64,000 nt of DNA from Haematococcus lacustris. Its lineage: Eukaryota; Chlorophyta; Chlorophyceae; Chlamydomonadales; Haematococcaceae. Below are positions 25,241 to 59,040 of the stretch, piece after piece. Under the pieces are notes generated by a model that was not told the DNA's origin, did not search any database, and was given only the letters and a program-made list of their open reading frames with translations. The position numbers were made by a program, and so were the translations under genes. The number at the start of each line of letters is the position of its first letter. Within the stretch, counting starts at the first letter, position 1. The stretch is from positions 14,418,280 through 14,482,279 of the forward strand of contig JASKMD010000029.1 of assembly GCA_030144725.1 (NCBI GenBank), given 5' to 3'.

Positions 25241-25885
25241 CTACTGTGCCCCATCAGGCTGCTGCTGCTGCTGCTGCTGCTGGGCCTTGGGTGGCTTGTC
25301 TCGCAGCCGCTTGTAGCCCAGGCCAGGGTACTCCTTGCCCTTGACTGGCAGAGCTCCCTGCTCTGGCCAGTAGCACAGCTCCAGTGGGCGCCACCTGCTC
25401 TCCCCAATGCACCGCATGTTCAGCGCTGCATTGCAGTCCCTGTCCAGCCACCTACCTGGCTGTGGTGCTGGCTTGGTTTTTGCAGCCTCGGCCTTGCCCT
25501 TGGTGGGCTCAGCTGCCTGCTCAGCCTTAGTGCGCTTACTGCGCTTGGCTGGCGGGGGAGTACTGGGCCCCGGCTCTGAGGCTGCTGCTGGCTGTGTGGC
25601 TGCCTGGCTGCTGCGTGGGGCCTGCGGGGGCTTGTGGGGGGCCACTACCGGGCACCACATCAGGCCCCGCACTGGCTGGTCACGCTGCTGGCTCCAGGCT
25701 GGGCGCAGCAGGCGGAGGTCCACCTGCTTGCTAACCGTGGCAGCAGTCTCACCCTCATGCCAGCAGGCAGAGTGACCGCAACAATAGGAACAATCCACCA
25801 TAATTACAATCCACAGTGGGGCTTCACAATACTCCGAGTAGCTAGTAGTAGACATGGAGGCACACACACCTGATGGGCGGAGCAT
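25241..25885 (-). pseudogene. Fanzor lineage A, C-terminal fragment
   Basis: Open frame of 214 codons that aligns with the last exon of the intact Fanzor at 38087-38872: LRLLRPAWS, VRGLMWC, then a variable linker, then GRWLDRDCNAALNMRCIGES (the RuvC-III Asp and following helix), then RPLELCYW and KGKEYPG.GYK. The RuvC-I and RuvC-II parts are absent, so it cannot be a working nuclease. The linker between the Cys-containing strand and RuvC-III is Ala/Lys-rich with PAKRSKRTK, unlike the Pro-rich linker of the other two lineage-A copies. The frame ends in a Gln tract. Upstream frame (before VDLRL) contains CSYCCGHSAC, probably chance. Confidence 0.8.
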
Positions 25886-26022
25886 AAGTGGGCATTAGGC
25901 ACACTAGCAGTAGCCTTTACATCAACGAGCTCTGTGTTCGATGACAAGTTGCCATTGTCATTGACAACTCTTGCTTATTTTTAGATTAGCATAAGGGCTG
26001 TAGGGATCGAATTTATCCAAGT
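25861..26022 (+). other. Fanzor lineage-B-type right-end sequence
   Basis: GGAGGCACACACACC, GGGCATTAGGCACAC, CAGTAGCCTTTACA and a CTGTGTT-GAT block followed by AAGGGCTGTAGGG occur in the same order as downstream of the 55-58 kb Fanzor (57779-57924). The copy here is diverged with an internal duplication (ATGACAAGTTG / TTGACAACT). It is a relic of an element end. Confidence 0.6.
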
Positions 26023-26723
26023 GGTCTTGATGGTGATGGTGCATGAGTTCCGTACCAGCCGGGTCAGCTCTGCCCGCACCAACGTGGTGGCAGGCCAAGC
26101 AGAGTCCTTCAGGTGAGAGACCTCTGGTGCATTTGCATTGTAGGAGTGGAGTCATTACATAGCTGTATAATGCCATCTCACACACCAACACCGTTTAGAC
26201 TAGACTATGGCTTGACTTGACACCTGGTTTGGCAAGGAAAGATCTTACAAATGTGCACTGATCTATGTCGCCTTGCAGGTGGCTGCGCCCGGTGCGCAGC
26301 ATGGCGACGCAATCCCGGATCCGGGGCCTGATGTGCTCAACGAGCACAGGCATCAGGTTCTACGACCAGGACGTGTCAGCCGCACTGAACATCCGCCGCA
26401 TCGCAGCCGGGCCGGGCCGCCCTCGCGAGCTCAGCAGCTGGCTGGGCCGCCCCGCCATGCCTAACCCAGGCAGGCCAGGCCAGGAGTGGGTGCTCGTGCG
26501 CGACAAGGGCCTGCTGCGCAAGTGGCAGCGGCGGCACCAGCGGCAGCGAATAGCGTCATGCGTATCATGCCATAAGCCAAGCAAACAAGCAATTCAATTG
26601 CCCCTCACACAGGGGATGTGTGTGCGCTACAGTGTGCAGAGGGGTAGGGTAGGGCTCTCGCGACTCGTAGGGTTAGGGGACCTAGGTTAGGGACACACAC
26701 CGGTCTCTCACTCCTGTTGATAG
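26023..26723 (+). pseudogene. Fanzor lineage B remnant (RuvC-II to C-terminus and right end)
   Basis: Left part encodes VHEFRTSRVSS (RuvC-II Glu kept, preceding Asp changed to His) up to 26100, then a GT-AG intron 26101-26278, then WLRPVRSM, RIRGLMCSTS, FYDQDVSAALNIRR (RuvC-III Asp) and a basic end KWQRRHQRQR. The second intron present in the 55-58 kb copy (between IR and FY) is missing here. No stop is met at the family stop position, so the frame runs on to about 26690. The 3' side holds CCCCTCACACAGGGG and ends with GGTCTCTCACTCCTGTTGATAG, found at two other places in the window. The N-terminal two thirds, including RuvC-I, are lost. Confidence 0.85.
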
Positions 26724-26867
26724 TGATAGGGATACAGGACGGCCTGTGTGTGCAACTGTACGTGGCTTGCCTAGGAAATTTTAGGAAATTAAACTACAAC
26801 TGGTACATTCGGGACATTCGACCTACGACGGCTAACACAGTGATGTATCTCGAAAGCCAAACCCTTC

Positions 26868-29258: not shown

Positions 29259-29330
29259 ATCCCTGAATTGTGGGGACAACACCATGTGATTTATATGTAA
29301 TGGACCTCACTTCCGGCCCACTCCGGTTGC
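29219..29330 (+). repeat. Direct repeat, copy 1 (DMT 3' end plus Fanzor left edge)
   Basis: From CTCTGTGCACCAAGCT to CACTCCGGTTGCCGG. It is matched, with small differences and a roughly 35-bp insertion in the second copy, at 32776-32925. Copy 1 covers the last codons and 3' UTR of the DMT gene and the beginning of the lineage-A Fanzor leader. Confidence 0.85.
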
Positions 29331-29409
29331 CGGCCCTCCGGTTGGACGGCGTCCTGATGCACCCCCCGGCACGGCCACTCCGCTCCGATGGTGTTGCTCA
29401 GTCCCTGTG

Positions 29410-32151
29410 ATGTCCCTGAAAAGGAACCGCAAGCGCGCCGTCTCCCCAGCACCCTCCGCAGCCGGTAAACCGCAAAGCTTGAGGAAAGGCCCCGAAGCTA
29501 ACTGACGACGCGCCGCAGTGTGCCCCACGCGACATTGCGACCTCGTGCATCAAGTCCTGCCGTGCGTGTGTTGTGCTTCCCCGTGTCTGCAGGTGCCAGT
29601 GGCAGCGGGCAGCAAGACCAGGGGCAGGGGCAGGGGCAGGGGCAGGCTGCCAAGGTAGTGATTGGAGAGCGTCGCCAGGTCATCAAGGCTGGCCTGCGTG
29701 GCCTTGTGAAGGCAGCCCTGCTTGATCTTAGCCCAGCCCAAGTCGACGCCATTGTGGCTGAGATTAACAAGCGCATGACCATGGGCAGCAAGCAATGCTG
29801 CCTAACAGCAGTCATGTGCCTCTCCTTGTTGCTTTCCTATTTCCTAGGCCAGCCCAGTCCAGCCCAGCAGCAGCAGCAGCACTTCCCAGCAGTAGGTCCA
29901 GCCCCAGGCCCCCCTCCCCTACCTGACCCAGCCTGCCCTCCCTATGCCCACCCCCGCCTTGCCACACGCAGCTCCCCCCGCACAGCAGCCGCCCCAGCCC
30001 AGCTGCCCCCCCCAGTGCAGCTGGACATCTGGGACCCACAGCTGCTGGCACAGATCAAGAATGCCATGGAGCTGCTTACCAATGCCATGATTGAGCACAT
30101 GATGCGTGGCCCCCCACCACCGCGGCATCAGGCTGCTGCCCGATGAGGTGGCTGTCTTTGAGCAGCCCAGCCGGTGGCCATGCTCAAGCAGCTGGATGAG
30201 GTACATTTGACAGGGGACGGCAACTCCCTCAACGCCAACGCCACCACCATCATCACCAGCATCAAGGAGTTCTACCGGCACCCGGGGCGGTTCATCAACA
30301 AGTGGGGCAAGGCGGTGGGGGTGGTGGAGGGTGGGTTCAGCCGGGAGATGAGACTACAGCCAGCCGGACCCAAAGCACAGGTGGCGCTTGCCGGCCAACA
30401 GCGTGCTGCGGCAACCTGAGTGGAAGGAACAGCACAGGGGGCTGCTGGGAGGGACAGGACTCCATAGGGAAGGGGGGGGCAGGCAGGCTACCTATATAGT
30501 TTAGGGTGCGCTATGTCTTGTTCGTGAACCGTAGCCTAGAGGGCTGGCAGATAGCCCCCCATGCCAAACCCCATGGCAACACCCACCTCCCTCGTACCTG
30601 CCCGCGCCCCTTCACCATGCTCCCCATGGTGGGGGTGCTGGCCAGGCATTTTGGTATCGATGATAGGGTGCTGCATGGGGTGCTGACCGACCTGGGCATG
30701 ACTAACCTGACACAGAAGCAGTTTGTGGCAAACAGCCTGCCCCATTTCATCCAGTTCATCCAGTACAGCCAGCTGCAAAACAGTGGGTGGGACTTTGCGC
30801 GCAGGGTAGAGACAGATGGGGTCAGCGTCAGTGTGCACTTCGTGCGCAACCAGGTAATCAAGGAGCCAGTGGAGCCGCCTTGCATAGGGCGTGAGCTCAC
30901 AGCCACCAGTGACTTCAGCGCAGCCACCCACATCGCTGTTGGGGTGGACCCAGGCGTCACACAGGCCATCAAGGCAGCGCATGCAATGCGGCACCCAGTC
31001 ACAGGTCAGGTGCTCAGGCAGTGGGAGTGGGAGCTGAGCAAGGGGCAGCTGAAGCATGACAGCGGGCTTACCAAAGCCAAGCAGGACACAACCCGTTGGT
31101 CAGCTGCCATCCAGCCACAGCTGCAGCAGCTGGCAGCTGCCACCCCAGCTGGCACCACCCTGGACAGCCTCCAAACCCACATCCTGGCCCTTAAGGCCAC
31201 CTTGGACCCGCTGTGGGAGGAGTACCCCAAGCCACGCTGGCGCCGGCAGCGGTTGGGGCTGCACCATGCCCAAGATCGTGTCATTGAGGCCTTCTGCAAG
31301 AAGGTATGACCCGGACCCGACCCGACCCGACCCGACCCGACCCGACCCGACCCGACCCGACCCGACCCGACCCGACCCGACCCGACCCGACCCGACCCGA
31401 CCCGACCCGACCCGACCCGACCCGACCCGACCCGACCCGACCCGACCCGACCCGACCCGACCCGATCGATGACCGGCCAAGGCCAGCAGACTGGGTACCC
31501 CCAGCAGGCCAGGTCAACCAGCGGTTGTTGCGCCCAGCCTGGAGCCTGCGGCATGCTAAGGATGTGCGGGGCCTGAAGTGGTGCCATGAGGTGCAGCCCA
31601 ACCCCCCTCCCCCTCCCCCAGCTCAGCACCCACCTGCCCAGGACCCCCCTACCCCAGCTCAGCACCAACTTGCCCAGGACCCCCAGGCACCTGCCCAGGA
31701 CCCCCCTGCCCCTCCCCCAGCCCAGGACCCCCCACCCCCTCCTCCAGCCCAGGAGCCACCCCCACCAGCCCAGGACCAGCCCCCTGCCCAGCTCCCATCT
31801 GGCCCAGTGCCACGACCCCAGGCCCCCCCTTGGGGCAGGTGGCTGGACCCGGACACCAACCCCTGCCTCAACTTCCAGTGCATTGGGGAGAGCATGCAGC
31901 GCCCCCTGGATCTGTGCAGCTATGAGGGCCTGATGGCTCTGCCGCCCATTGGCAAGGAGTACCAGCAGGGCTACAAGCGGGTCAATGACCGGCTGCCAAA
32001 GGTCAAGCAGCGGCTGCACCGGGCTGCTGAGTACCGGCGGGGCATTGATGGCCGGGCCCGCAACAATGCTGGTAGTTTACACAGGCTGTTAGCCTTACAA
32101 AGCATTAAGCTATCAGTTTTGATGAGGTGCCCAGTGGTCAAGGGGGATTAG
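29410..32151 (+). pseudogene. Fanzor lineage A gene, inactivated copy
   Basis: Exon 1 (29410-29464) encodes a short basic leader like the nuclear-localisation leader of the intact copy; exon 2 starts at 29593. Frames are open in blocks (29593-30146, 30506-31306, 31466-32151). Against the intact copy I see a frameshift near 30110, another near 30170, loss of about 30 residues near 30400, and loss of the whole RuvC-II segment (everything from VVNGMKW to HLPDD). The RuvC-II part is replaced by a (CCCGA)n array. RuvC-I (VGVDPGVTQ) and RuvC-III (RWLDPDTNPCLNF) are readable, but the second Asp of the DRD is now in DPD and the catalytic Glu is gone. A Pro-rich linker separates VRGLKWC from RuvC-III. 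Not a functional nuclease. Confidence 0.88.
31309..31464. repeat. CCCGA pentanucleotide array, about 31 copies
   Basis: Begins three codons after the CKK that ends exon 2 of the decayed Fanzor, at the intron position, and runs into the remaining third exon. It is the source of long Asp-Pro-Thr-Arg and Gly-Ser-Gly-Arg-Val frames that are not genes. Confidence 0.97.
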
Positions 32152-32290
32152 CCCCAGGAAAGAGTGCCATCGATGTGGGGTTTGTAGTCATCAAGGGTGC
32201 GACTGAGGATGCTACAACTTGTTTGTAGTAGCTGAGTGAGTTTACCCACAGTCCAACATGTTGTTCCTTGTTGAATACGTATTGTTGGGT
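32086..32290 (+). ncRNA. Conserved 3' region of Fanzor A copy 1: candidate guide (omega) RNA / right end
   Basis: Downstream of the ORF, about 200 bp are shared with 37860-38086 (minus strand). Blocks: AGGCTGTTAGCCT, AGTTTTGATGAG, GCCCAGTGGTCA, GGGGATTAGCCCC (hairpin), CATCAAGGGTGCGA, GCTACAACTTGTTTGTAG (hairpin) and CCCACAGTCCAACATGTTG. In TnpB and Fanzor systems the guide RNA scaffold overlaps the 3' end of the gene and the right end. The role here is inferred from position, folding potential and conservation. Confidence 0.55.
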
Positions 32291-33289
32291 CTGTATTCAA
32301 TGAGGCTTTCACTGCTTCCACATCGTTATCAAGTACCTGTCATGCAACTATTTGTATGACAGTAGATATATATGAATGGATACATCTAGGGAGCTTCCGA
32401 GTCCGTGTAACGTTACATCTTAAATTGTTATGCTATGTTGCATGTTACATCCGGTGTACGTACCTTGCCGGTCATGTTACATTATCTTACTAGCTGCTCG
32501 GGAATTGTCTACATATCTGTACCCCTATCCTCTTGTGGAGCCCCTGCACTTCTCCACAGCAGTGAGAGCCCGGTGTACGTCCTTAACCTAGGTGTCGGGA
32601 CTGTGTCCTCAACCTATTCGCTGGAGCCCTACCCTATGCATGACTACCTCGCCAGGCCACATCCATGTTAGACAGAGCTACATTGATTGCCCAGTGCCCC
32701 ATTCTGAACATGGACTTAGTGAACTGAGTGTCTGTGACCTACAGCCTGGTGCCTGTTGCCTGGCATACCTCCCAGCTCTGTGCACCAAGCTTTTGGTGAT
32801 GTAGGACGTGTATGACGTGTTGTGCGTTAGACCGGTTGCCTGAGTCCCTGAATTATGGGGACAACACCATGTAATTTATATGTGATGGACCTCACTTCCG
32901 GCCCACTCCGGTTGCCGGCTCTCGTAAAACTGTAAAACTCGTCAAAACCAGTAAGATTTTACCAGGGGGTCCGCCAATGGCGGGGGTGACCACATGGACT
33001 TGCAGCAGTTCGGAGTATTTGGGTCTCTAGCATGAAGCGAGCATACTACGCCACATTCACCCGCCAGCCCTGGGTGTAGTAGCGCTCAGCATGACAGAGC
33101 CACAAGTTATCGTCCCGTCCAGTCCGTTAGAATAAGCAGCGTTGTGGGACACAAAGACACACTGGACAGCAGGCAGGTGATGCTCTACCGCTCATTGCTA
33201 CAACGGCGCGACAGCGCCTCAAGCGACTCACCCAAAGGATTCTCCCAATCTCAGTCACCCTTCAGCTGCACAATGCAGAGCAGTACCGC
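32291..33289. other. Spacer with duplicated DMT 3' end
   Basis: No supported gene. It includes AT-richer sequence (32290-32780) and a second copy (32776-32925) of the DMT-gene 3' end plus the first about 35 bp of a Fanzor A left edge, then the probable promoter region of the kinase gene that starts at 33290. Confidence 0.6.
32776..32925 (+). repeat. Direct repeat, copy 2 (DMT 3' end plus Fanzor left edge)
   Basis: Matches 29219-29330: CTCTGTGCACCAAGCT, GGTGATGT, CCTGAATT, GGGGACAACACCATGT, TGGACCTCACTTCCGG and CCACTCCGGTTGCCGG in the same order. Together the two copies bracket the Fanzor A copy 1 region. Confidence 0.85.
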
Positions 33290-36304: not shown

Positions 36305-37859
36305 TTAGGCTGCTGGGCCGCCTTCCCCCTCTAGGGGTTCGGGACTTTCTGTAACGCACTTTATAGCAAGGTGCACAAACAAAGGCGCACATGGGCTCAA
36401 CATGAAGTCATGCAAGTTCTCATTATTGTTCTGAAAAGTCATGGCAAACTCCGCCTGCTGCCTGATGGAACTCGTGGCAGTGCACTCAAAGATGAAATGC
36501 ATGGCGTCATCCACTACCCCCTCTGTGCATCTAGTGCATGTGCGATCAATGAAAGTAACCCCCTCAACCCGAGCCTTCTCCACCCCCAAAGCGTTGTTGC
36601 CTAACCTGAAGCTAGTCAAGATCGTGCGAACTTATGTAGAGAGCTGTCTGTTTAGCAGGTGTGGTGCCATGTGATTGATGCCAATGCCGTCCCCATGCTT
36701 GAACCATGCAGCATACGAGCATCTCTCCCAATGCACCGTCTCAGGCAGTCTAGGGTCTCCCTCAAACCCAACCCAACGCCCCCCCCACGTCTTGAGCCAC
36801 TTGACTTCCATAGCCTTGGTGCCTAGGATTATGTCCGGGCTCAAGGTGAACTCACCCCCCATCAGCTCTCTGGCGGCAAGCTGGAACTGAGCACTCCAGC
36901 TGGCCTGACACCTCCTGCCTAACTCCACATCTGCCTTGATGACTCTCATTAGCAGGTCGCTGTGGGATAGTTTAGCAGTGTTCCAGAACTGGCATGCAGC
37001 CCTAAGCCAGTAAAGCTGGAGGGGCAGCTGCCCCTACTCATGCAACACCATCAGGCCTGACACTGAGCTACGTACCCTGGCAGCAACCCTGAGAAAGCTG
37101 AGCATGCGTGTTTGCACAGGGTTGGAGAGTTGCACACCATGCCCAAGGAATGCAGTGCCCCATACCTGGCTGCCATACAGCCCCAGTGGGAGCACGAACG
37201 CTCTAATAAGGTGACACATGGCATATGGATCATGCAGGACCCCATACTCTCTGGTACGCTTGCACGCCTGGCGCATGGCGAGGAACATGCCAGCCCTCAT
37301 ATGAGTGGCAGCAAAAGCAGGGGTGGCGCTGGGATTGAAGTGCATGCTTTAGTACTTGAACTCTCTCCCCACAGGCAGGATCTCATGCTTGTAACCAATG
37401 CTAGGTGCTGCAATTTGTGAGTTGCCATTGAAGACCATCACCTTTGACTTGCCCACATTGACTGTAGGGTGTTTCCTGTCCGCAAAACCTTGTAGCTGGC
37501 AGACCAGCCGCTGCAGCCCGTGGGGCGAGGTGCTCACTAGGGTCAGGTCATCAGCATACATGAAGTGGGTGACAGGTGTGCCTTGCACCCTCACAGCATC
37601 AACAGGACCCAGAAACTCCTTACTGATGTCGTGGACATAGAGAGCAAAGAGGAGTGGGCTGCTGGGGCAGCATTGCTTGACACCTTGGTCCGGAGTCACT
37701 GGGGGGGTGCGGTGGGGGCCATCTATCAGCACATAGCCAGCCTTGGCGTAGTCCAACAGCTCTAGTCCCGGAAGAGGCTGTCGCAAGTCATTGTGTTTGT
37801 GTATTCATATATTATTCCTATATGTGTCCATATATTATTCCTATATGTATCATTCCTAT

Positions 37860-38086
37860 ACAGGCCAACAAAACTCATTCAACAAGGAACAACATGTTGG
37901 ACTGTGGGTAATCTCACTTAGCTACTACAAACAAGTTGTAGCAACCTCGATCGCACCCTTGATGAAAACAAACCCCAAGTCGATGGCACGTTCCTGGGGG
38001 CTAATCCCCCCTGACCACTGGGCAACTCATCAAAACTACCAGCTTGAATGCTTGTGAGGCTAACAGCCTGAGCAAACTACTAGGGC
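37860..38086 (-). ncRNA. Conserved 3' region of Fanzor A copy 2: candidate guide (omega) RNA / right end
   Basis: Starts immediately after the stop codon of the intact fanzor. It shares blocks with 32086-32290 in the same order (AGGCTGTTAGCCTCACA, GCCCAGTGGTCA, GGGGGATTAGCCCCC, TCATCAAGGGTGCGA, TACAACTTGTTTGTAGTAGC, CCCACAGTCCAACATGTTG, TTCCTTGTTGAAT). GGGGGATTAGCCCCC and CTACAAACAAGTTGTAG can fold into hairpins. Position directly 3' of the nuclease gene is where TnpB/Fanzor guide RNAs are encoded. Assignment is inferred. Confidence 0.6.
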
Positions 38087-40989
38087 CTACGCATTGTTGC
38101 GGGCCCGACCATCAATGCCCCGCCGGTACTCTGCAGCCCGGTGCAGCCTCTGCCTGACCTTTGGCAACCGGTCATTGACCAGCTTGTAGCGCTGCTGGTA
38201 CTCCTTGCCAACGGGGGGCAGGGCCCTCAGGTCAGTCCAGCTGCACAGCTCCAAGGGGCGCTGCATGCTCTCCCCAATGCGCTGGAAGTTCAGGCAGGGG
38301 TTGGTGTCCCGGTCCAGCCACCTGCCCCATGAAGGGGCCTGGGGTGGTGGCACTGGGCCAGGTGGAGGCTGGGCAGGGGGCTGGTCCTGGGCAGGGGGAG
38401 GTGGAGGTGGTGGCTCCTGGGCTGGGGCAGGGGGGTCCTGAGCAAGGGGGGCTGGGGGAGGGGGAGGGGGAGGGGGGTTGGGCGGCACCTCATGGCACCA
38501 CTTCAGGCCCCGCACACACTTAGCGTGACGCACGCTCCAGGCTGGGCGCAATAGCCGGTGGTTGACCTGGCCTGCTGGGGGTACCCAGTCTGCGGGCCTA
38601 GGGCGGTCATCCGGCAGGTGCAGCTCACATGGCTGGCGGGCATGCACAGACGAGCTTACACGGCTGGTGCGGAACTCATCCACGATCACCAGCCTGTCAG
38701 GCCTGGGCTCCGTGCTGGGCCTGCTGGGCTGCTCCACCACCTTGCGAAACCCCGCCCGCACCGCCCCCGCCTTCCACCCACCCTGGCTGAAGTTGCCCGC
38801 TCCCAGGAACACCGCGACCCCCCTCTCTTGGTGGTAGTGCTGGCGTGACACCCACTTCATCCCATTCACCACCTGCAGGTATAGGGTCAGGTCAGGTCAG
38901 GTCAGGTCAGGTATAAGGTCAGGTCAGGTCAGGTCAGGTCAGGTCAGGTATAAGGTCAGGTCAGGTCAGGTCAGGTATAAGGTCAGGTCAGGTATAAGGT
39001 CAGGTATAAGGTCAGGTCAGGTATAAGGTCAGGCCAGGTCAGACCTTCTTGCAAAAGGCATCAATGACGCCCTCCTGGGCATGGTGCAGCGCCAACCGCT
39101 GCCGGCGCCAGCGTGGCTTGAGGTACTCCTCCCATAGCGGGTCCCAGGTGGCCTTGAGGGCCAGGATGTGGGCATGGAGGGCGTCCAGGGTGGTGCCAGC
39201 TGGGGTGGCAGCTGCCAGCTGCTGCAGCTGTGGCTGGATGGCAGCTGACCAACGGGCTGTGTCCTGTTTGGCTTTGGTAAGCCCGCTGTCATGCTTAAGC
39301 TGCCCCTTGGTCAGCTCCCACTCCCACTGCCTGACCACCTGACCTGTGGCTAGGTCCCGCTGTGCATGCGCAGCCTTTATGGCCTGGGTGACACCGGGGT
39401 CCACCCCCACGGCTATGTGGGTGTCTGGGCTGTAGTCGCTCGTGGCTGTGAGCTCACGCCCTATGAAGGGCAGCTCCACTGGCTCATGGACTGCCTGGCT
39501 GCGCACAAAGTGAACACTAATGCTAACCCCATCCGTCTCCACCCTACGGGCGAAGTCCCACCCACTGTTCTGCAGCTGGCTGTACTGGATGAACCGCTGC
39601 CAGTGGGGCAGGCTGTCAGCCTCAAACCTGGCCCGTGTCAGGGTGTCCTGACCCAGGTCAGCCAGCAGGCCACGCAACACCCTGTCATCGATGACAAAGT
39701 GCCTGGCTCGCACCCCCACCATAGGGAGCATGGTGAAGGGGAGCGGGCAGGTGCGGCGGCGGCGGCTGTTGCCATGGGGTCGGGCATGGGGGGCTATCTG
39801 CCAGGACTCTAGGCAGCGGTTCAGAAACAGGACGTACCGCACCCTGTTCTCTATGGGCAGCCAGCCTGCACCCCCCTTCCCTATCGACTCAACTCCCGCC
39901 TCCCACTCTGCCGGCAGCCCCAACAGCCGCCTGTGCCAGACTACCTCTTCCCGCCACCCCTCCTCCCGTAGCACACTGTTTGGTGGCAAACGCCACTTGT
40001 GCTCCCGGTCTGGCTGGCTGTAGTCAAGCCTACCTAGCACCAGTTTGAGGAAGTGCTTCTTTGCCTCCTTGCTGAACCCCCCCCCCACCACCCCGACTGC
40101 CTTGGCCCACGTGTTGATGAAGCGCTGCGGGTGACGGTAGAACTCTGTGATGCTTGTGATGATTTTGGTGGCGTTGGCATTGAGGGAGTTGCCGTCACCT
40201 TGCAGGTGCACCTGGTCCAGCTCCTGAAGCATGGCAACTGGCCAGGCACTGCTGGGCTGCTCAAACACGGCCACCTCACCGGGCAGCAGCTTGATGCCAC
40301 GGTGGTGGGGGCCACGCATCAGGTGCTCCTGCACACTTGCATTGGTGAGCAGGTCCATGGCAGCCTTGATCTGTGGCAGCAGGCTGGGGTCTTCGATGTC
40401 CAGCTGAACGGGGGGGGGCAGCTGGGCTGGGGGGGCTGCACTGCGGGGTGAGTGGCGTATGGGGAGGCGGGGGTGAGAGTAGGGAGGGCAGGCTGGGTCA
40501 GGTGGGGGAGGGGGGCATGGGGCTGGACCTGCTGCTGGGAAGCCTGGTGTGGGCTGACCTAGGAAGCACTGGAGTAGCATGGTCAGCGACATGACCGCTG
40601 CCAGGCAACATTGCATGCTGCCCATGGTCATGCGCTGGTTGGCATGTGCCACCACTGCGTCGACTTCCTCTGGGCTCAGGTCAGGCTGCGCTGCCTCCAC
40701 AAGGCCGCGAAAGGCTGCCTTGATAACCTGGCGCCGCTCTGCAATTACTACCTTGACAGCCTGCCCCTGCCCCTGGACTTGCTGCCCGCTGCCACTGGCA
40801 CCTGCATTACATGGGACGGCACAGCACACGCGCAGAACTTGATGGGCGAGGGAAGCGGAATGTCGCGTGGACCACACTGCGTCGCGTCGTGAGGGGGGCC
40901 TAGGCTAAGCTCAGTGCTAAGCTCAGTGGCTTACCGGCTGCACTCTGTGCGGGAGAGAAGGGGCGCTTGCGTTTCCTTTTCGGGGGCAT
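38087..40989 (-). CDS. Fanzor (eukaryotic TnpB-like RNA-guided nuclease), lineage A, intact
   Basis: Three exons join in phase: 40989-40935, 40801-39045, 38872-38087; 865 residues. Expected to be a guide-RNA-directed DNA endonuclease acting in the nucleus. The first residues PPKRKRKRP form a clear nuclear-localisation signal on their own exon. A Gln/Ala and Pro-rich region (to about 170) precedes an unassigned helical region that should hold the wedge/REC parts. RuvC-I is VGVDPG (Asp about 486), RuvC-II is VIVDEFRTS (Glu about 670), RuvC-III is RWLDRDTN (Asp about 793), so the D-E-D triad is complete. The zinc-ribbon region is reduced: Cys at about 723 and 730 (CVRGLKWC) but no clear second pair; instead a Pro-rich linker of about 55 residues precedes RuvC-III. 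The stop is followed directly by the conserved 3' region. No frameshift or stop is seen, so it may be functional. Confidence 0.9.
38873..39044. repeat. Pentanucleotide-rich intron of Fanzor A copy 2
   Basis: The second fanzor intron consists almost wholly of AGGTC units interspersed with AGGTATA on the plus strand (TGACC/TATACC on the coding strand). The same intron position in copy 1 is a CCCGA (GACCC) array. Confidence 0.9.
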
Positions 40990-42205
40990 ATCAGGGATTT
41001 AGCAACACCATCCAAGCGTGCTAGGGGGGCATCAGGTCGCCATCTAACCGGAGTGCCGGCAACCGGAGTGGGGCGAAAATGAGATCCATTACACGATCCA
41101 TTACACAATCCATTACACAACCCTATTAACGCATTGATACACAGCCCAGCAAAAACATTATCCCTATCATTCCTATACAGACCCTCCAGGCAGGCAGGCA
41201 AGCAAGGGCTGTGGCAGTTTGACCCCAACCCGCAAGTGCTCCCACAATTGTTGTCGAGGTATGTGGTCATAGGCCTGTTTGAAGTCAATGAAGGCAGTTA
41301 AAAGCGTGCGGTGCTTTGCATCTACGCTGGCCTTTTGAGCGTGGACAAGATGGCGCAGAATGAACATGGGTTGCATGGTGCTGCGTCCCGGGATGAACCC
41401 AAACTGCTCAGCTGGCAGCAATTTGTGTGCCATGCACCAGGCAGTCAGCACGTGCCGCAACACGTTAGCATACAGGCGGTACAACACACTACTCACAGCA
41501 AGCATTCTGTACTTGTTGGGGTCTGTGGGGTCTGTGTCCTTGAAGAGGGGGCTGATTCTAGCTACCTTCCAAGCCGCTGGCATCATGCTTTGAAACCATG
41601 CGGCAAGTAGAGGGAGCAACAAATATGTGGCAACACCCTCCTCAACTGTGCGGGCGTGCTTGATAAAGGGGATTGGGAGCCCATCCAGGCCAGGTGCTGT
41701 GTCAGTGTTGAGCTCACGCAGTTGTGCTTGTACAATGGATGTGATGTTGTCAAGCTGGGGCAGCTCATAGGCAGGTGGATGTGTTGTGACAGGGGCAGGG
41801 GCAGGGACGTGGCAGGCCAAGCAGAGTCCTTCAGGTGAGAGACCTCTGGTGCATTTGCAGAGTAGGAGTGGAGTCATTACATAGCTGTACAATGCCATCT
41901 CACACACTAACACGGTGTGGACTAGACTATGGCGTGACTGGACACCTGGTTTGGCAAGGAAAGATCTTACAAATGTGCACTGATCTATGTCTAAGGAGCG
42001 TCCCGGGCTGTATCATCTTATATGATATAGACTATGTATCATGATAATATCATTATATTTCATTATAAGCCCTGTTTCTGCAGCGCAAGACGCCTGTGGG
42101 GACCCTATGTCCCTCGCGCACTGGTCGTAACCGTGCGCGCTGAGGTTCGGGTGGCAGTTAGGCGGCAGTTGGCGGGCAGTACTGGGTTCTGGCGGGCAGT
42201 GTATC

Positions 42206-42858
42206 GTGCACCGTATCGTGGACTTGGTGTCCCACGCCAAGCAATGGGCAGTGAAGGTGGTGGAGGAAGGTTGTCCAAGACTGGCTATGGGAGTGGTGGC
42301 TGCATTCCAGAGACGTGCTGAGAAACACTACTCCCCGGTTTACTCTGCAGCCTTTGTGTTGGACCCAGCCAACTACAAGAGCCTTGCACCTGGCACCCAC
42401 CCAAGGCCACCCCTCCACGTCTTGACGGCCTCACAGCTGCAGGACGTTACAGCCACGGTGGCGCGCCTAAGCGATTGTGACGAGGAGGATGTGGACTGGG
42501 AGCTGAAGAAGCTGAAGCTGGCTCATTGGCCTGATGCTATGGCGTCAGATGTGAAGAGCATCGTCGCTCAAACCCGCACAGACGAGGATGGCCGCACAGT
42601 GGCGGCATGCGCCGCAACCTGTGGAGCTTTGAGGCGAGAACGTTTGTCCCCTGCTGTTCCGAGGCTGCTGGACGCCTCCTATCCATGCATGTCACCACGG
42701 CCGCAGCAGAGCGAAACTGGTCGTCATGGGGCAACACCTACGATGCTGGACGGGCTCAGCTTGGCATTGAGTCGGCGGAGAAGATGGTTTACATCAAGGC
42801 CAACATCCCCACGTCAAAGGCTCCAGGGCCATCCCTGCTGCTGGCAGAAGGCTTGTAG
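42206..42858 (+). pseudogene. hAT transposase C-terminal remnant
   Basis: First frame has the helical region before the dimerisation domain (KQWAVKVVEEGCPR, YSPVYSAAFVLDP, LHVLTASQLQDV). A frame change near 42610 leads into the hAT dimerisation motif TTAAAERNWSSWG followed by LGIESAEKMVYIKAN, ending at 42858. The catalytic RNase-H part and BED finger are missing, so the element depended on a transposase in trans. Confidence 0.85.
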
Positions 42859-42902
42859 TAGGGTGTGACGGCAGTAGGATGGCTGTGTGTTGCTGCCGCT
42901 AG

Positions 42903-43190
42903 CGTGGGTGTGAGCAGCAGGCTGGCCATGTGTGGCACTGGGCCTAGCAGCCGCCCAGGATTCTTAGTGTGCCATGTGTGGGTGTGAGCAGCAGGCTGGC
43001 CATGTGTGGCACTGGGCCTAGCAGCCGCCCAGGATTCTTAGTGTGCCATGTGTGGGTGTGAGCAGCAGGCTGGCCATGTGTGGCACTGGGCCTAGCAGCC
43101 GCCCAGGACTCTTAGCATGCCGTGTGTGGGTGTGAGCAGCAGGCTGGCCGTGTGTGGCACTGAGCCTAGCACTGAGCCTAGCACGTGTGT
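42903..43190. repeat. 74-bp tandem repeat, almost four copies, in the hAT element
   Basis: TGAGCAGCAGGCTGGCC recurs at 42911, 42985, 43059 and 43133, exactly 74 bp apart; the last copy is the most diverged. Subterminal repeats of this kind can be transposase-binding sites in hAT elements; that role is inference. There are no unique spacers, so it is not a CRISPR array. Confidence 0.92.
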
Positions 43191-43913
43191 ATTGTAATGT
43201 CTCAGGTTGCAACGCCTTGTCACTCCCATTAAGAGCGAATGCAACCCGTTCATGGAGCCTATTCATGAGTTGCGACCTGTTGCTACGAGCGAATTGCAAC
43301 CTGCGAAAATCTTGAGATTCTGCGATTACCAGGAGTCGAACTAGGGTCGCCAAGGTGACTTGGGATGTATCATAACTGTATCATGATAATCATGATATGC
43401 CTAATAGTCCATATACGCGTATCATGAGATATCATGATACATGCCGCTCCCTATCTATGTCACCTTGCAGGTGGCTGCGCCCGGTGCGCAGCATGGCGAC
43501 GCAATCCCGGATCCGGGGCCTGATGTGCTCAACGAGCACAGGCATCAGGTTCTACGACCAGGACGTGTCAGCCGCACTGAACATCCGCCGCATCGCAGCC
43601 GGGCCGGGCCGCCCTCGCGAGCTCAGCAGCTGGCTGGGCCGCCCCGCCATGCCTAACCCAGGCAGGCCAGGCCAGGAGTGGGTGCTCGTGCGCGACAAGG
43701 GCCTGCTGCGGAAGTGGCAGCGGCGGCACCAGCGGCAGCGAATAGTGTCATGCGTATCATGCCATAACTCAAACAAACAAACCATTCGATTGCCCCTCAC
43801 AAAAGGGATTGGTGTGCGCTAGAGTGTGCATAGGGTAGGGTAGGGCTCTAGCGACTCCTAGGGTTAGGGACCTAGGTTAGGGACACACACCGGTCTCTCA
43901 CTCCTGTTGATAG

Positions 43914-44449
43914 TCAGACCCTACCAACTCTGATAAAAGCTTTTGCACAACCATGTCATGGTCATTCCGGCGCCGGGAACTGTGCGATTGGCGTAACACC
44001 GTGCGGCATGCGATGAACGCTTAGTCTGCTATACGCCCGTAATGCCAGGAACCCCGTAAATGAAAAAGGTGCGCCCACCAATCAGCCGGTCGCTCTCACG
44101 ACATCGCGCAGCGCAAGTGCATTGTGAAGGGGCTTCGCAATGACGTGGTGGTCTCCTGACGCTGTAAGGGCAAGTACAGCCGGCGGTACAGATTTCTCCC
44201 GGCTCAATGAACCCGACGTTGTTTCCATTGCGTCAGCGCGCACCTAGTCCTCTTTCTGCGGGGTCAAAGGTCCCAAATGGTCCTTCAGCTCATAACTTCT
44301 TCTCAGCTCGGGGTAAGGACGGACATATGTTGACAGTACAGCTTGCTTTGTTGCTTGTAAGCCCTAGGTTGTGTGGAGCAGAATGACCCGCTCTTGCTGC
44401 CGCTGTCAATGTAGAAAATGCTGATGTTACTAAAAAGTTATTTAAACTC
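43914..44449. other. Gene-free stretch
   Basis: About 535 bp between the Fanzor B right end and the interrupted coiled-coil ORF. I see no coding or repeat signal; it probably holds the promoter of the interrupted gene. Confidence 0.45.
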
Positions 44450-45009: not shown

Positions 45010-45011
45010 TT

Positions 45012-52140: not shown

Positions 52141-52153
52141 AAGTCGGGGGGAT
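52141..52153 (+). other. Polypurine tract of the Gypsy element
   Basis: AAGTCGGGGGGATTG lies directly before the 3' LTR; the G-run is the likely plus-strand primer. Position is diagnostic; exact ends are not. Confidence 0.7.
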
Positions 52154-52939: not shown

Positions 52940-53130
52940 TGTAACGTGCCTTTGCACGGCCAGCGTAATCCTCTTAGTGCGGCTAAAGAGCTTTGGGCGA
53001 TGTCTAAGCTCCCGGGAGTCGAACCCGGCCTTGACACCGGTCACCGCACTTTGAGAGTTACACTGGCGCATGGGGGCATTATATGGTTGTCCTTAAATGG
53101 CATATCAGCCAGGCGCATTGCCACGTAACA
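52940..53130 (-). repeat. 3' LTR of the short element (minus orientation)
   Basis: 191 bp. Contains CCCGGGAGTCGAACCCGG at about 53011-53028, which on the minus strand is a tRNA-like T-arm/B-box (GGTTCGACTCC). Confidence 0.95.
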
Positions 53131-54038
53131 TTCCCCCCCACCTGGTCCTCTCTGGACGCAGTTGTCCTCAACTGTAGGATTGTGCCTATAGGTGACTGCC
53201 CCGCCTCGGCAACCCACGATTGTGCCGAGACTCGCGCCTCAACGCTCGGTGTCAAGCCCCACTTCTTGATTGCTGGCAGAGTTACTTTGACATTGCTCTG
53301 TGGCCCATGGCTCGGCAACACTGCAGATGCTATTCGAGACGTACTCACTGGGTCGGGAAACGACCTCGCTAGGGTCACCAAATGCGCTGCTGCGTTGGTG
53401 AACGCGGCCATGGTCGTCATCCGGTCCTGGCCCGGAGCTGCTGCCACCGCTGCTGCTGCTGCTGCTGCAATGCGCTCAGCCAACTCGCCCACATTTGCCT
53501 CACTGGCTGGCTGGCCTGCACTGTTCGGCCCTACATTTTGCTGCGATTGAGCCACGCCTGGTGCCCCAACATGCGGGACAGCCAGTGCTAATTGCGACAC
53601 CAATCGTTGAGAAGCAGGCACATGGGCCGTTGGCAGTGCCACAGAAACAGGGCTCATGGCCGCTGGGATCCCAGAACCAAACGAAAACCCAGCACCTAGC
53701 CCTTGCTCGCTTGCAGCGGCATTGTTGGAAACAGCCTCGGCTACTGGCCTATTGGGAGCAGTCAGAAATGTCGTTCTCAGCTGTGCGAATTGCTGCTGCA
53801 ATTGCTGAGGATTATTCTGCTGGCTTGCAGCCGATTGATCGGTCTGGGTACGCATAGCAGTCTGTTCTGGATCTGGAAGCAAACGGGCACCCAGCAGGAA
53901 ACAGAGCATATTGCGAAACTCTTGCTTTGTGTTGCAGATCAAAAGCTGGCTTTGTTGCTCACGAGTCAAACAGTCTAAGGCTGCGCTAATCTGTTGTGCC
54001 TCACTAGGTGAAAACAACAAGTGATCCATGCTAGGCAA
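53079..54038 (-). CDS. Unknown protein of the short LTR element (319 residues)
   Basis: The only long frame of the internal region, in element orientation, starting about 260 bp inside the 5' LTR and ending within the 3' LTR. N-terminus is helical (MPSMDHLLFSPSEAQQISAA; LTREQQSQLLICNTKQEF), followed by Gln-rich and Ala/Ser/Val-rich stretches with poly-Ala. It has no recognisable motif of Gag, protease or transposase. It may be a highly diverged Gag-like packaging protein, which is common in non-autonomous elements, or a captured fragment. Intact frame and identical LTRs suggest the insertion is recent. Confidence 0.6.
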   Translation of the reverse strand: MPSMDHLLFSPSEAQQISAALDCLTREQQSQLLICNTKQEFRNMLCFLLGARLLPDPEQTAMRTQTDQSAASQQNNPQQLQQQFAQLRTTFLTAPNRPVAEAVSNNAAASEQGLGAGFSFGSGIPAAMSPVSVALPTAHVPASQRLVSQLALAVPHVGAPGVAQSQQNVGPNSAGQPASEANVGELAERIAAAAAAAVAAAPGQDRMTTMAAFTNAAAHLVTLARSFPDPVSTSRIASAVLPSHGPQSNVKVTLPAIKKWGLTPSVEARVSAQSWVAEAGQSPIGTILQLRTTASREDQVGGNVTWQCAWLICHLRTTI

Positions 54039-54285
54039 CAGCGGTGTACTAATCTGGCAGCGCTAGATCACATACCCATTTTAAAAGTCGACTCGTACCA
54101 CCCTCGGAGCTGCTCGCGATACTGCTGCAAGACAAACTCTTGGTCTTCGTTCCACGGAAATTCAACTTTTCCCCGGCAGGTCTCCTGCCAACCTTTCCAA
54201 GCAGATAGTGAGAACAAGCGCGGTTGCTCTCTACAAGCGGTCTCGACTACAACTCCCTCGAACAGACGCGCTTCTGCGCACTCAG

Positions 54286-54300
54286 CGTGGTCGGAAACCA
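54286..54300 (-). other. Primer-binding site of the short LTR element
   Basis: TGGTTTCCGACCACG one nucleotide from the LTR; identical over 15 nt to that of the Gypsy element at 45012. Confidence 0.8.
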
Positions 54301-54301
54301 A

Positions 54302-54492
54302 TGTAACGTGCCTTTGCACGGCCAGCGTAATCCTCTTAGTGCGGCTAAAGAGCTTTGGGCGATGTCTAAGCTCCCGGGAGTCGAACCCGGCCTTGACACC
54401 GGTCACCGCACTTTGAGAGTTACACTGGCGCATGGGGGCATTATATGGTTGTCCTTAAATGGCATATCAGCCAGGCGCATTGCCACGTAACA
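54302..54492 (-). repeat. 5' LTR of the short element (minus orientation)
   Basis: 191 bp, reads identical to 52940-53130. Confidence 0.95.
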
Positions 54493-55345: not shown

Positions 55346-55542
55346 ATTGATAGTGATAGGGATACATTCCGTTCCGTCCTTGGTTGAGCACGTTGGACCG
55401 GCTTTGGATTTGGATTCTGGGGGCTGGGTGGTGGGCACCTGCCAGCCTGGTCAAAGCGGCAGTGCACCTATGTGCGCCGCATGGTGTGCGGGCTGGACGT
55501 CAGCTGGCTGGTGGGGGAGGGGGGGGGTGGGGGAGACTGAAG

Positions 55543-57671
55543 CCATGCAGGCTGAGGTGGCTTTGCAGCGGGGCCTGCTGGGGCTTGAGGAGGGGGAGGA
55601 GGTGGATGATGACTGGGTGGAGGATCCAGCAAACCGGGGCCGGCTGCTGCGCCATGCGGTGCACACCACAAGAGAGATGGAGGCAGCAATGGCAGCCTGG
55701 CAGCTGGATATGGTGCCCTGGCAGCAGGCTGAGCTCACCAACCCCGGGCTGCTGCCTAGGCCCCCCCGCCCCCCCACACCCTACGCCATCACCCCCACCA
55801 GCAAGTGCCAGGCTCGGCATGTCTTCATCGACACACGGGGCCTATACGGCATGATGCGTGACGCCGGCATGCTGGGGTGCTGACAGAGGAGGGGGTCACC
55901 TCCTTGGCGAAGTTCAGGAACGGTGCCCTACCTGACCCAGCGAGGCCGGGCCACTACATAGAAGGGCCCAAAGACAGCCATGTGAGTGATCCTTGCAGTC
56001 AGGTGCCAGCCAGTCCTTGGGTGCTCCGTCAGCTGCCATGTGTGCTGTCAACTGCCGTGTGAGCCTTCAGCCAGCTGCCTTCAGCCAGCTGCCTTCAGCC
56101 AGCTGCCTTCAGCCAGCTGCCTTCAGCCAGCTGCCTACACAGGCTGATGAGGTGCCTTGGTTGTGTTTATGGTGGCCGCAGGTGGCCAACCGATGGGACG
56201 CATTGCTGCCCGACCCTCGCCGCCAAAAGCTCGCCAGCCCCAAGCACAACTTCGCGCAGATCGTGCACACCGACGGAGTCGCCCTCAGCGTGATGTTCCT
56301 GCGGCCCAAGCCTGCCGCTCCACCCGCAGACCCGCCGCGGATGGGCAGGCACATGGGCGCAGTCAACCCGCTGGCCCACCTCGACGCGGAGTGGCTGGGC
56401 GTGGACCCCGGCAAATCAAACATGGCAACAGTGGCGCACGAGGAGCGCAGCGCTGCCGGCACAGTGGTGTCCGTGTGGCAGAGATCTCTAACCGCCGGGC
56501 AGTACTACCGCGACAGCGGCATCACACGGCAAGCCCAGGCAACCAAGAAGTGGCTGGCCCAGGTGAAGCCGCAGCTCAACGCCCTGTCGCACGTCAGCAG
56601 CAAGCCTAGCTCGCTGGCCGCGTACCGGCGGTTCGCCAACACCGTCCTAGCGACGTACGACGCCATGTGGGCCGAGGTCTCCAAGCCTCGCTGGGCCAAT
56701 GCCAAGTTCCGGCTGTACTGTGGCAAGAAGCGCGTGGTGGCAGACTTCTGGTCCAAGGTAAGGCCTATTAGTAGTAGGCCTATAAGCTAGGGAGTAGCCA
56801 ATCAAAGTCAGCTCATGCTCTTGCACCTGGCCAACTGCTGCTGCTGCTGCCCCATGGTGAACCTGACCTTACACATGTGTGCCTTGTGTGTTGTACCATG
56901 TGTGGCTGCAGCTCATCAAGCAGGCCAAGAAGCGGTGGCCAGACCGTCCCCTGGCACTGGCCTATGGGGCTGCTGGCTTCAGTGGCAGCGGCAGCATTGG
57001 CTGCAGGGGTGTCCCGGTCAGCCAGATGCTGAAGGAGGCGCTGAGGCAGTTCCCAGCAGGGCGAGTGGTGATGGTAGATGAGTTCCGCACAAGCCGGGTC
57101 AGCTCAGCCTACAGCCACCCCAGTGAGGCCCTCCCTGGGCAGCCGCCTGAGTCCTTCAGGTGAGAGGGTCAGTGGGGGAGGGTCAGGGTAGTGCTGGGAG
57201 GTGGTGGAGTCAAGTTGGCTGGGTAGGGTCAAGATTGGGAAGGTAAGGAAAAATCTTACAAATGTGCATTGCTGCATGTCTCCATGCAGGTGGCTGCGGC
57301 CAGTGTACAGCGAGACAAAGCGATCCCAAGTCCGGGGCTTGATGTGCTCAACAAGCAACAACATCAGGTAAGCAATGGCCTGACACTGCACATGTGCATG
57401 GCCGCAACATATCCCACATGAAGTGACACATGACATGGGCCATGACTTGACTGCATGCAACTCCCACACCATGTGCAGGTTCTATGACCGGGACGTCTCA
57501 GCCGCGCTGAACATCCGCCGCTGTGCAGTCGGCCCAGGCCCACGCCCCACTGAGCTGTGCTACTGGGATGGCCGCCCAGCCATGCCAAAGCTAGGCCGGC
57601 CAGGCCAGGAATGGGTGTACTTGCGTGACAAGGCCCTGCTGCGTAAGTGGCGGCGCAAGTGGCGGCGATAG
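55543..57671 (+). pseudogene. Fanzor lineage B gene, nearly intact, one frameshift
   Basis: Frame open through 55870, then a one-base deficit in the G run of GCTGGGGTGC near 55872; after it the gene continues without damage. Exons: (N-terminal)-55981, 56182-56757, 56912-57159, 57290-57367, 57479-57671. RuvC-I WLGVDPGKSN, RuvC-II VVMVDEFRTSRVSS, RuvC-III FYDRDVSAALNI are all present, so the D-E-D triad is intact. The zinc-ribbon is reduced to one Cys (VRGLMCSTS). The protein ends in basic KWRRKWRR. It is shorter than lineage A and lacks the N-terminal NLS exon and the Pro-rich linker. The true start is unknown; Met at 55543 is one option. The frameshift may be real inactivation or a sequencing error in a homopolymer. 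Intron 1 holds a 14-bp repeat. Confidence 0.82.
56058..56138. repeat. 14-bp repeat (CCTTCAGCCAGCTG), about 5 copies
   Basis: Tandem array within the first identified intron of the lineage-B Fanzor. Confidence 0.9.
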
Positions 57672-57931
57672 CCAGCTACAGCAAGACAATCCAAGAAAAC
57701 AAGATACCAAACCCCTCACAAAGGGGATGTGTGTGAGTAAGAGCTATAGAGTAGGGTAGAGCTCTTGCTAGTAGTAGCCTGGAGGCACACACACCAGAAG
57801 GCTGAGCTGGAGTGGGCATTAGGCACACCGTCAGTAGCCTTTACAATAATGATCTCGCAGCCTGTGTTTGATTACAACTCATGCTTTATTTTGGTGTTGC
57901 ATGAGGGCTGTAGGGGTTAAAACTTGATAGT
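57672..57931 (+). ncRNA. 3' region of Fanzor B: candidate guide RNA scaffold / right end
   Basis: Directly after the stop: ACCCCTCACAAAGGGGATGT forms a hairpin also present after the 26-kb and 43-kb remnants (with a compensated CCCCT/AGGGG stem in the 26-kb copy). Further on, CTCATGC and GCATGAG form a 7-bp stem with a 16-nt loop inside a block (57863-57924) found again at 59387-59448. The guide-RNA role is inferred from location and conservation only. Confidence 0.5.
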
Positions 57932-57957
57932 GATAGGGCCTGTCGTAATGAAGACAC

Positions 57958-58654
57958 ATGACAATGAGTTACACAGGCTTCGTCAGAGCCAGCTCAGCCG
58001 GCATACTTGGCGCTGCGGGCGCGACCTTGGGGAGAGCTGCGCAACTGCCCGCGCTAGGCAGCACGGCGTCCTCTGCAACCCTAGCTAGCCGTGTGCTGCT
58101 GCTTATCGGCATGGTTGGTGTGTGTTTACGAAGAGCCTTATACTTAGCGTTTGCTTTGCCAGTGATCCAGCCTGTGTGCCAGTGCCTCACATGAATGCTC
58201 TCACACTGCCATACATATCGCATAGCCACAGCCAGCTGCCTAGCATCCCAGGTCTTGGGTCATGACCCCCGTGGGAGTCCCCAGCTCATGGGCATCTCAG
58301 CCCTGGTCCTATCCCGAGGACCCTTTCGCTGCTCTCGCAGTGCAATTTAGCTGGCTCAATTGCATACGTCAGTGCCTTGGCTAACAACACAAGTTCAATG
58401 GCAGTGACGGCAGTTTCTAACACTGCCAACATCCTTGCCGCGTGAGGAACAGCCTTCCAGCAGCGCACATGTTACAGATAATCAACTATGCTATTGCATG
58501 ACTGTTCCTTTCATGCAGGGGCGGCTTGAGCTACTTAGTCTTGGGGGAGGCGATATCGTTGCAATGGTTGGTCGGCGCATCCTGTGTCTCAGCCGGTGTC
58601 GCTCTCATCATTGCATCACGGCAGCCAGCTGCGGCAGATCAAAAGCTGGAGTGA
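57958..58654 (+). CDS. TMEM42-like small EamA-type membrane protein
   Basis: Three exons join in phase: 57958-58113, 58341-58441, 58519-58654; 130 residues. Four hydrophobic segments: SAGILGAAGATLGRAAQL; LASRVLLLIGM; CNLAGSIAYVSALANNTSSM followed by VTAVSNTANILAAGGLSYLVLGE; and ISLQWLVGASCVSAGVALIIAS. The order C-N-x-x-(membrane)-S-S-hydrophobic-T-V-x-N-x-x-N-(GE)-L-x-W-G matches TMEM42/EamA half-size transporters. Function of the family is not established. The Fanzor B right end lies immediately upstream, so the native promoter and leader are displaced or shared. Start may be 57958 or 57964. Confidence 0.75.
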
Positions 58655-58797
58655 GGGGCTTCACTGAGGGTGCTCATCTCTGCGCAAGCACACACTTGCC
58701 ACAATCATGCATGCAATGCCCAACCTCAGGTTGGAGCGACAACCCAGCCTCTCAATGCCTCAATGGAAGCGTTGCAGAGGCACCCTGAGTGAGCACT

Positions 58798-59040
58798 GAA
58801 ATGCCCAAGGCCAGGCAGAGGTTGCACCGGGCTGCATAGTGTTGGTGGAGCAAGGATTCATGGGCCCGCAACCACCCATAGGGCCTAGTAGCTAAGCGGG
58901 TTAAACTAAGCCTCACAGGCATCAAGCTGTGAGATTTTAAAGGGAAGCCCAGTGGTCTAAGGAGGGAACGTGGCACCAGGCATGGTTTTGTAGTCATCAA
59001 GGGTGCACCCAATTACCCACAGGTCAACACCTAGGCCTGT
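58798..59040 (+). pseudogene. Fanzor lineage A 3' relic (C-terminus plus 3' region)
   Basis: Diverged but ordered similarity to the end of the lineage-A gene (TTGCACCGGGCTGC, GGGCCCGCAAC) and to its 3' region (GGGCCTAGTAGC, AGCCTCACA, GCCCAGTGGTC, TTGTAGTCATCAAGGGTGCA, ATTACCCACAG). The GGGATTAGCCC hairpin is degraded here. This third copy helps delimit what is conserved. Confidence 0.7.

Follow-up and report, generated by a model that had tools for sequence, protein, structure and literature searches.

Fanzors are sporadic among green algae according to the Auxenochlorella paper, and in Auxenochlorella, itself a green alga, a Fanzor element is the most abundant repeat of the genome and is left uncharacterised there (PMC12633428). 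Three elements of Chlamydomonas reinhardtii, CRe-1, CRe-2 and CRe-3, have multi-exon Fanzor1 genes and carry Helitron2 ends, and one-ended Helitron transposition was proposed for them (Bao and Jurka 2013, PMC3627910). According to Yoon et al. (2023, PMC10711439), Fanzor1 proteins carry DPG in RuvC-I and, six residues ahead of the CxxC of the zinc finger, an alternative glutamate. Bao and Jurka (2013, PMC3627910) called the C4 zinc finger between this glutamate and RuvC-III strictly conserved; the description covers TnpB as well as Fanzor proteins. Here we describe Fanzor1 elements of lineages A and B in a 64-kb stretch of the chlamydomonadalean green alga Haematococcus lacustris (14418280-14482279, in a 307.9 Mb assembly), which we call the window. 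As far as sequence can tell, the Haematococcus branch of Fanzor1 has lost the C4 finger of the nuclease/TNB region and has kept a complete D-E-D active site. We judge it moderately probable that these finger-less elements spread by target-primed reverse transcription, with an enzyme of the LINE (long interspersed nuclear element) type acting in trans.

The A and B genes are best taken as Fanzor1 relatives, that is, as predicted RNA-guided RuvC endonucleases, and the motif and sequence-profile tests support this assignment. The resemblance between A and B is not due to chance, because their proteins are 33% identical across 296 amino acids (E 6e-38) and there are hundreds of homologues. Every one of the best 120 of 346 homologues of A (E<=1e-3) and of the best 120 of 270 homologues of B is named Haematococcus lacustris, and relatives outside Haematococcus would be visible only within those best 120 matches. 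A profile of the family matched a Fanzor1 on a viral contig (IMGVR_UViG_3300042867_001586, here L031) with hhalign 98.0%, E 1.5e-13 and 334 columns, and BLASTP to the same protein gave E 1e-6 and 2e-8, with homology across the C-terminal half. Through this half the DPG, DEFRTS and NRDVNGATNI motifs are aligned. The L031 protein differs in having the cysteine pair after DEFRTS intact, and the identity is about 20%. A viral pattern with Lys after TS gave no match.

Pfam was less generous. The L031 Fanzor1 scores 28.7 bits with PF07282, above the cut-off of 26.3, and two of 11 Haematococcus proteins also exceed it (P0065 at 27.5 and P0099 at 27.0 bits), but both are long gene models, and none of their stretches passes when scored singly. 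P0021 (25.3 bits), P0153 (16.7), P0073 (14.8), P0161 and P0046 (both 13.1) fall under the cut-off; P0002, P0124, P0077 and P0013 have no match, nor did a six-frame PF07282 scan of the whole genome give one. A profile search of 177,635 PDB sequences returned a single weak match, the Guillardia Fanzor1 (E 0.41). With Foldseek, the five best PDB matches of our structure model were all Fanzors (E 6e-7 to 9e-5), followed by Cas12f (4e-3). The best of them are SpuFz1 and GtFz1 (PDB 8gkh, 9ceu, 9cer); like the predicted A and B proteins, they have a RuvC core whose glutamate lies between strand five and the TNB domain. Structure carries this conclusion less firmly than sequence: the model is weak (pLDDT, the predicted local distance difference test, 55.6; Foldseek template-modelling scores 0.21-0.24), and it may be pulled toward the Fanzor fold because eight of its 66 alignment rows are L031-type Fanzors. 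An earlier model of the lineage A2 protein P0161 (pLDDT 45.8) was too poor and was left out of the structure search. The initial annotation had named the Fanzor identity and had asked for a profile and structure check against Fanzor1, Fanzor2 and TnpB families, with a best match to a different RuvC/RNase-H transposase family as the refuting outcome; no profile or structure match supports such a family as the best match.

The motifs around the active site were scored on 66 chosen sequences in the numbering of P0153. RuvC-I D342, P343 and G344, the alternative RuvC-II glutamate E519, and RuvC-III D572 and N578 are each at least 90% conserved, and the motif that holds the glutamate is the one that precedes the finger in L031-type Fanzors. 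The finger itself is another matter. Of 229 motif sites found among 240 Haematococcus proteins, none has both cysteines of its first pair and two have a single one, whereas both are present in 117 of 117 L031-related comparators (120 relatives of L031 were taken, of which the 117 with DE[FY]RTS were used and the other three left out). Between the glutamate motif and RuvC-III we counted 0-4 cysteines in 156 parsed Haematococcus proteins, compared with 6-9 in 119 comparators. This loss is set against L031-type comparators. SpuFz1, as described, has a CCCC zinc finger, of which A and B are without the first cysteine pair. Lineage A has a long proline-rich linker between the glutamate and RuvC-III. 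In the B1 subfamily the motif reads HEFRTS in nearly all proteins listed (exceptions are P0195 with D and P0210 with N), so the HEFRTS of the 26.0 kb window copy is inherited; we rejected the D-to-H change as a sign of decay, since it is typical of B1 proteins.

Coding pieces in the window were mapped by tblastn with 10 family proteins as queries (E<=1e-3). The A and A2 features are:

37864..41164 (-): complete Fanzor1 element of lineage A, lying within the reverse transcriptase domain of a non-LTR (long terminal repeat) retrotransposon
37848..37863 and 41165..41180 (unstranded): the two copies of the A target-site duplication, 16 bp each
40935..40989 (-): A exon 1 (MPPKRKRKRPFSPAQSAAG, a basic start resembling a nuclear localization signal), GT/AG junctions, in-frame model
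39045..40801 (-): A exon 2 (N-terminal part, RuvC-I GVDPG)
38873..39044 (-): A intron 2, GGTCA-type pentamer array
38087..38872 (-): A exon 3 (alternative glutamate VDEFRTSRVSSS, Pro-rich linker, RuvC-III LDRDTNPCLN)
29296..32296 (+): decayed lineage-A copy, tblastn coding piece 29652-32070, internal stop
25283..25726 (-): fragment from the C-terminal part of an A2 gene (the third lineage), 66% to P0102

The 38.1 kb gene is the sole complete Fanzor gene in the window, with three exons, GT/AG introns and 865 amino acids without stops (tblastn coding extent 38090-40754, minus strand), and its protein is 95.6% identical over the full length to the database protein P0002, also of 865 amino acids. 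The exact 16-bp repeat TATCATTCCTATACAG lies on both flanks of the element, and the RVT_1 Pfam match of the decayed non-LTR element is split around the insert (profile positions 6-92 and 115-193). The 29.4 kb copy is missing the DEFRTS region, its RuvC-III LDRD has become LDPD, and its intron holds a (GACCC)n array. The pentamer array of this A intron thus differs between the 29.4 and 38.1 kb copies, being (GACCC)n at 31308-31465 and of a (GGTCA)n type at 38885-39042. A host gene resembling EamA (Pfam match under the cut-off) occupies 27380-29256, and its tail together with the first ~45 bp of element A recurs as a flanking duplication at 32776-32923, after the 29.4 kb copy.

The B features are:

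55407..57926 (+): 5'-truncated B2 element; genome copies align from 55407 and mostly stop at 57926
56182..57671 (+): B2 C-terminal exons (56182-56757, 56912-57159, 57290-57367, 57479-57671)
55347..55361 (unstranded): B2 target-site duplication TTGATAGTGATAGGG, 45 bp upstream of the start of element homology
57924..57938 (unstranded): second copy of the B2 target-site duplication, overlapping the last 3 element bases
57791..57926 (+): terminal block at the 3' end of B, a candidate both for the guide-RNA scaffold and for the end recognised by the reverse transcriptase
26030..26735 (+): 5'-truncated B1 copy with 3' end; HEFRTS, YDQD, last B2 intron absent
41809..41991 (+): left part of a B1 copy, 95% to 26087-26269
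41992..43452 (unstranded): insertion of 1.46 kb that splits this B1 copy, with the 9-bp direct duplication ATCTATGTC
43453..43914 (+): right part of the B1 copy with 3' end, 99% to 26261-26560, last exons only
25841..26005 (+): solo B2-type 3' end, in pieces of 79% and 81%
32553..32593 (-): solo B1-type 3' end, 41 nt, 85%
59329-59375 and 59386-59450 (+): solo B1 3' end, then solo B2 3' end, with the 8-bp repeat TGTGTTAC

The B2 window copy lacks the start of the element, and its frame is broken near 55,880; past the break, 364 C-terminal amino acids are open and include the three catalytic motifs (RuvC-I GVDPG, VDEFRTSRVSSAY and YDRDVSAALN); its tblastn coding extent is 55442-57635 on the plus strand. 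The 26.0 kb B1 copy has coding sequence at 26030-26549 (plus strand) and end sequence at 26555-26735, and shares its end with 43747-43914, the end sequence of the split copy, which has coding sequence at 43469-43741 (plus strand). An exact further occurrence of the B2 copy's 15-bp target (55347-55361) lies at the 3' junction of the 26.0 kb B1 copy, 26717-26731. By eye we take the insertion at 41992..43452 to be hAT-like, and an open reading frame within it (42206-42868) had no Pfam match.

The initial annotation had seven loci of Fanzor coding or end sequence, of two lineages. The six coding loci and the solo ends hold up, and lineages and extents had to be corrected. The A copies at 29.4 and 38.1 kb were recovered by tblastn, as were the B copies at 26.0, 41.8 and 55.5 kb together with their end sequences; solo right ends proposed at 25.9 and 59.3 kb are present, with another at 32553-32593. 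Neither the finger loss nor the target-site duplications had been noted in the initial annotation. The 25.2 kb copy, given as A, is closest to A2, and the 58.8 kb "A" locus turned out to be only a 90-nt match to a 3' end (78%) with no tblastn match. RuvC-II or RuvC-III signatures had been ascribed to every coding copy, which does not apply to the 29.4 kb copy, to the last exons at 43.4 kb, or to the A2 fragment, which has no recognisable DE[FH]RTS. There was no further coding piece at our tblastn threshold in the rest of the 64 kb. In place of two lineages, the sequences suggest no fewer than A, A2 and three subfamilies of B. Of 19 genome copies compared with the window B2 copy, the motif is readable in 18, all of them B2 (a frame break hides the motif in locus L020). 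They form two groups, and we rejected the second as a separate "B3" because both are B2.

The genome-wide search for further copies that had been proposed was made with the B-element DNA. From 4139 candidates, 40 were taken for scoring and yielded 48 matches, and the 40 main matches favour long copies. Thirty-six of these 40 reach element position 2574 or beyond, out of 2580, and the element's 3' end reads ...AAAACTTG. Starts are more varied: 22 of the 40 begin at query base 1 or 61 and 18 begin inside the element. For the duplication test we used 26 of 30 fetched loci, those extending to the 3' end. In 11 of the 26, the sequence beyond the 3' end and the sequence preceding the element have an exact direct duplication of at least 12 bp (12-17 bp) in common, versus 2 of 650 mismatched locus pairs, and all 11 overlap the last 2-4 bases of the element (terminal TG/TTG). 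In the window the duplications are 15 bp for B2, 16 bp for A and 8 bp for the 65-bp solo end. Truncated forms include the window B2 and B1 copies, the solo ends, and loci L030 and L033. Read together, the fixed 3' ends, the target duplications and the truncated forms point to target-primed reverse transcription.

The process we propose would start from a largely unspliced element RNA, copied by a LINE-type reverse transcriptase supplied in trans. Insertions would be anchored at the fixed 3' end, often duplicating 12-17 bp of target, and the products would be 5'-truncated, internally deleted or possibly 5'-inverted copies. The conserved 3' block may serve as the recognition end of the reverse transcriptase and, by analogy with known Fanzors, as a guide-RNA scaffold, with a guide that would read from the block into flanking DNA; the nuclease would then cut matching DNA, and in this way the element could persist or spread. 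The elements as we see them contain no transposase or reverse transcriptase (A has the Fanzor gene only; B was surveyed beyond its first ~0.8 kb). Introns are compatible with an occasional RNA step, given how they differ: one position is common to A and B (FCKK|VVNG in A, FWSK|LIKQ in B), both later B2 introns are absent from A, and the last one is absent from B1.

Several observations weigh against this account. Eighteen of 21 examined copies that start at query base 1 or 61 extend 755-883 bp further upstream. Among the eight inside-start loci that we fetched, clean 5' truncation was found only in L030, so truncation is not dominant among the copies with the best scores. L026, L027 and L029 are internal deletions that keep 5' sequence, which fits a Helitron equally well; L025 and L028 are interrupted and L006 is nearly complete. 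We had considered all 18 inside-start matches as truncations and rejected this, since deletions or interruptions account for the majority of those we examined. In 15 of the 26 tested loci there is no exact duplication of at least 12 bp; at two of the 15 the repeat is 15-16 bp long but carries one mismatch. L033 is a truncated copy with an exact 3' end and no duplication. The examined copies mostly retain introns, which would be unexpected for a spliced mRNA template. The 3' block is conserved across an alignment of 11 copies, among them the divergent one at 25.9 kb, but as a guide RNA it does not fold clearly better than shuffled sequences (z -1.7, -0.6, -1.7, -0.7). Covariation in the block was not counted, there being too little variation. 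Other copies average 84-93% identity to the window B2 copy as far as base 57289, then 91-97% over the three segments that follow and 95-99% past the stop codon, so mosaicism, and not constraint, could be why the 3' end is conserved.

L016 has an inverted 5' piece, which may be a 5' inversion or could be an older fragment, and in L008 and L017 the end sequence is repeated at the 3' junction. The B 5' ends share short blocks joined to differing sequences. In L024, about 844 bp upstream of query base 61, a B copy is seemingly inserted into the 3' end of an older B-like element (by eye).

The strongest competitor is that these are non-autonomous Helitron2 elements moved by one-ended rolling-circle transposition, with truncations, deletions and duplications as by-products. 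We see this as a real possibility, though we lean away from it. Haematococcus is in the Chlamydomonadales, the order to which Chlamydomonas belongs, and its copies, too, show retained introns and internal deletions. The precedent of CRe-1-3 is close, being Fanzor1 elements of a green alga with multi-exon genes, intact 3' ends, 5' truncation and internal deletions, and with target duplications given as 7-19 bp (PMC3627910). However, Helitron insertion by itself gives no target duplication, and 11 of our 26 loci have one of at least 12 bp, the long copies L011 and L024 included. The Haematococcus duplications also overlap the terminal TG/TTG in 11 of 11 cases, and none of the 11 upstream contexts ends in TTTT. 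The Haematococcus copies, probably thousands in one genome, allow a test of the Helitron account of algal Fanzor elements, and with fixed 3' ends and readable duplications the question of how Fanzors help transposons becomes directly testable. A more specific form of target-primed reverse transcription, in which the Fanzor makes the staggered target cut, the 3'-block RNA is both guide scaffold and template, and the LINE reverse transcriptase in trans primes via the terminal UUG, strikes us as a long shot; if true, it would be a natural eukaryotic case of RNA-guided, nuclease-primed retrotransposition by a zinc-finger-less Fanzor.

Independent of how the elements move, the proteins might be derived from Fanzors and now be catalytically dead, or repurposed as RNA-guided binders. 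The first CxxC is lost in all lineages seen, B1 has HEFRTS and two copies have DQD, and finger loss could signal loss of the predicted nuclease activity. We think this unlikely. Binders need no triad, whereas the level of conservation given above holds for the whole triad here (D in DPG, E in EFRT and the second D in DRD), and the coding sequence is under selection. Set against three members of the other B2 group, the window B2 copy gives a ratio of nonsynonymous to synonymous substitution rates (dN/dS) of 0.24-0.26; the full set of 13 B2 pairs spans 0.06 to 0.43, with extremes that rest on few changes. Between the two window A copies dN/dS is 0.35 over 283 codons, one of these copies being decayed. 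Of 20 copies, counting the one in the window, 18 are open throughout the 364-amino-acid B2 part; L002 is interrupted by a single stop and L020 by the frame break. At the level of sequence, coding constraint persists in this finger-less family, and a large selected branch with the triad and without the finger is a natural experiment on the finger's role.

To estimate copy number we took 12 stretches of 10 kb at round coordinates on contigs with B matches (E<=1e-6 at genome scale; reversed sequences gave 0 matches). Five of the 12 arbitrary stretches hold a total of five Fanzor coding loci, or about one per 24 kb, unevenly spread: four loci are in the first five stretches and one is in the next seven. 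By extrapolation the genome would have about 13,000 Fanzor loci (Poisson range roughly 4,000-30,000). The initial annotation presented the window as a dense cluster. It has six coding loci per 64 kb (Poisson about 0.05 versus the sampled density, post hoc), which is near background; any enrichment is modest at most, because the sampled DNA has a similar Fanzor density. The family probably has thousands of remnants, and the window cluster is mostly genomic background. That conserved and drifting parts could be separated, as had been expected from the window, proved right with the genome-wide copies, not from the window copies. An array of host-domesticated genes in local tandem, suggested by several copies within 34 kb, is very improbable in view of copies in both orientations, the A element nested in another transposon with target duplications, and Fanzor pieces elsewhere at a similar order of density.

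Reported Fanzor abundances go up to hundreds in the parts of the literature consulted (PMC3627910, PMC10711439), with 150, 70 and 35 loci given for CRe-1-3 (PMC3627910), compared with the extrapolated thousands in Haematococcus. Among the papers listed by literature searches, no title or abstract opening gave an account of a Haematococcus Fanzor, of a Fanzor with target-primed reverse transcription, or of such copy numbers. On present sequence comparisons, this is a Fanzor1 variant that is new in combining finger loss, a kept predicted triad and extreme multiplication. Transposable elements make up 50.8% of a published H. lacustris assembly, as stated there (PMC10400597).

An Rfam scan at gathering thresholds gave no match and a tRNA scan found none. 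A Gypsy-type chromovirus LTR retrotransposon lies at 44783-52380, with gag at 45266-47677 and pol with a chromodomain at 47711-51637; its insertion appears recent, because its 227-bp LTRs are 100% identical and it has a 5-bp CCGCC duplication. A second LTR-like pair at 52940-54492 (191 bp, 100% identical, GGTAG flanks) encloses a short internal region and is probably a non-autonomous element. Finally, there is an interstitial (AGGGTT)n repeat at 22540-22598 and a long TGGGC pentamer array at 61657-61885.

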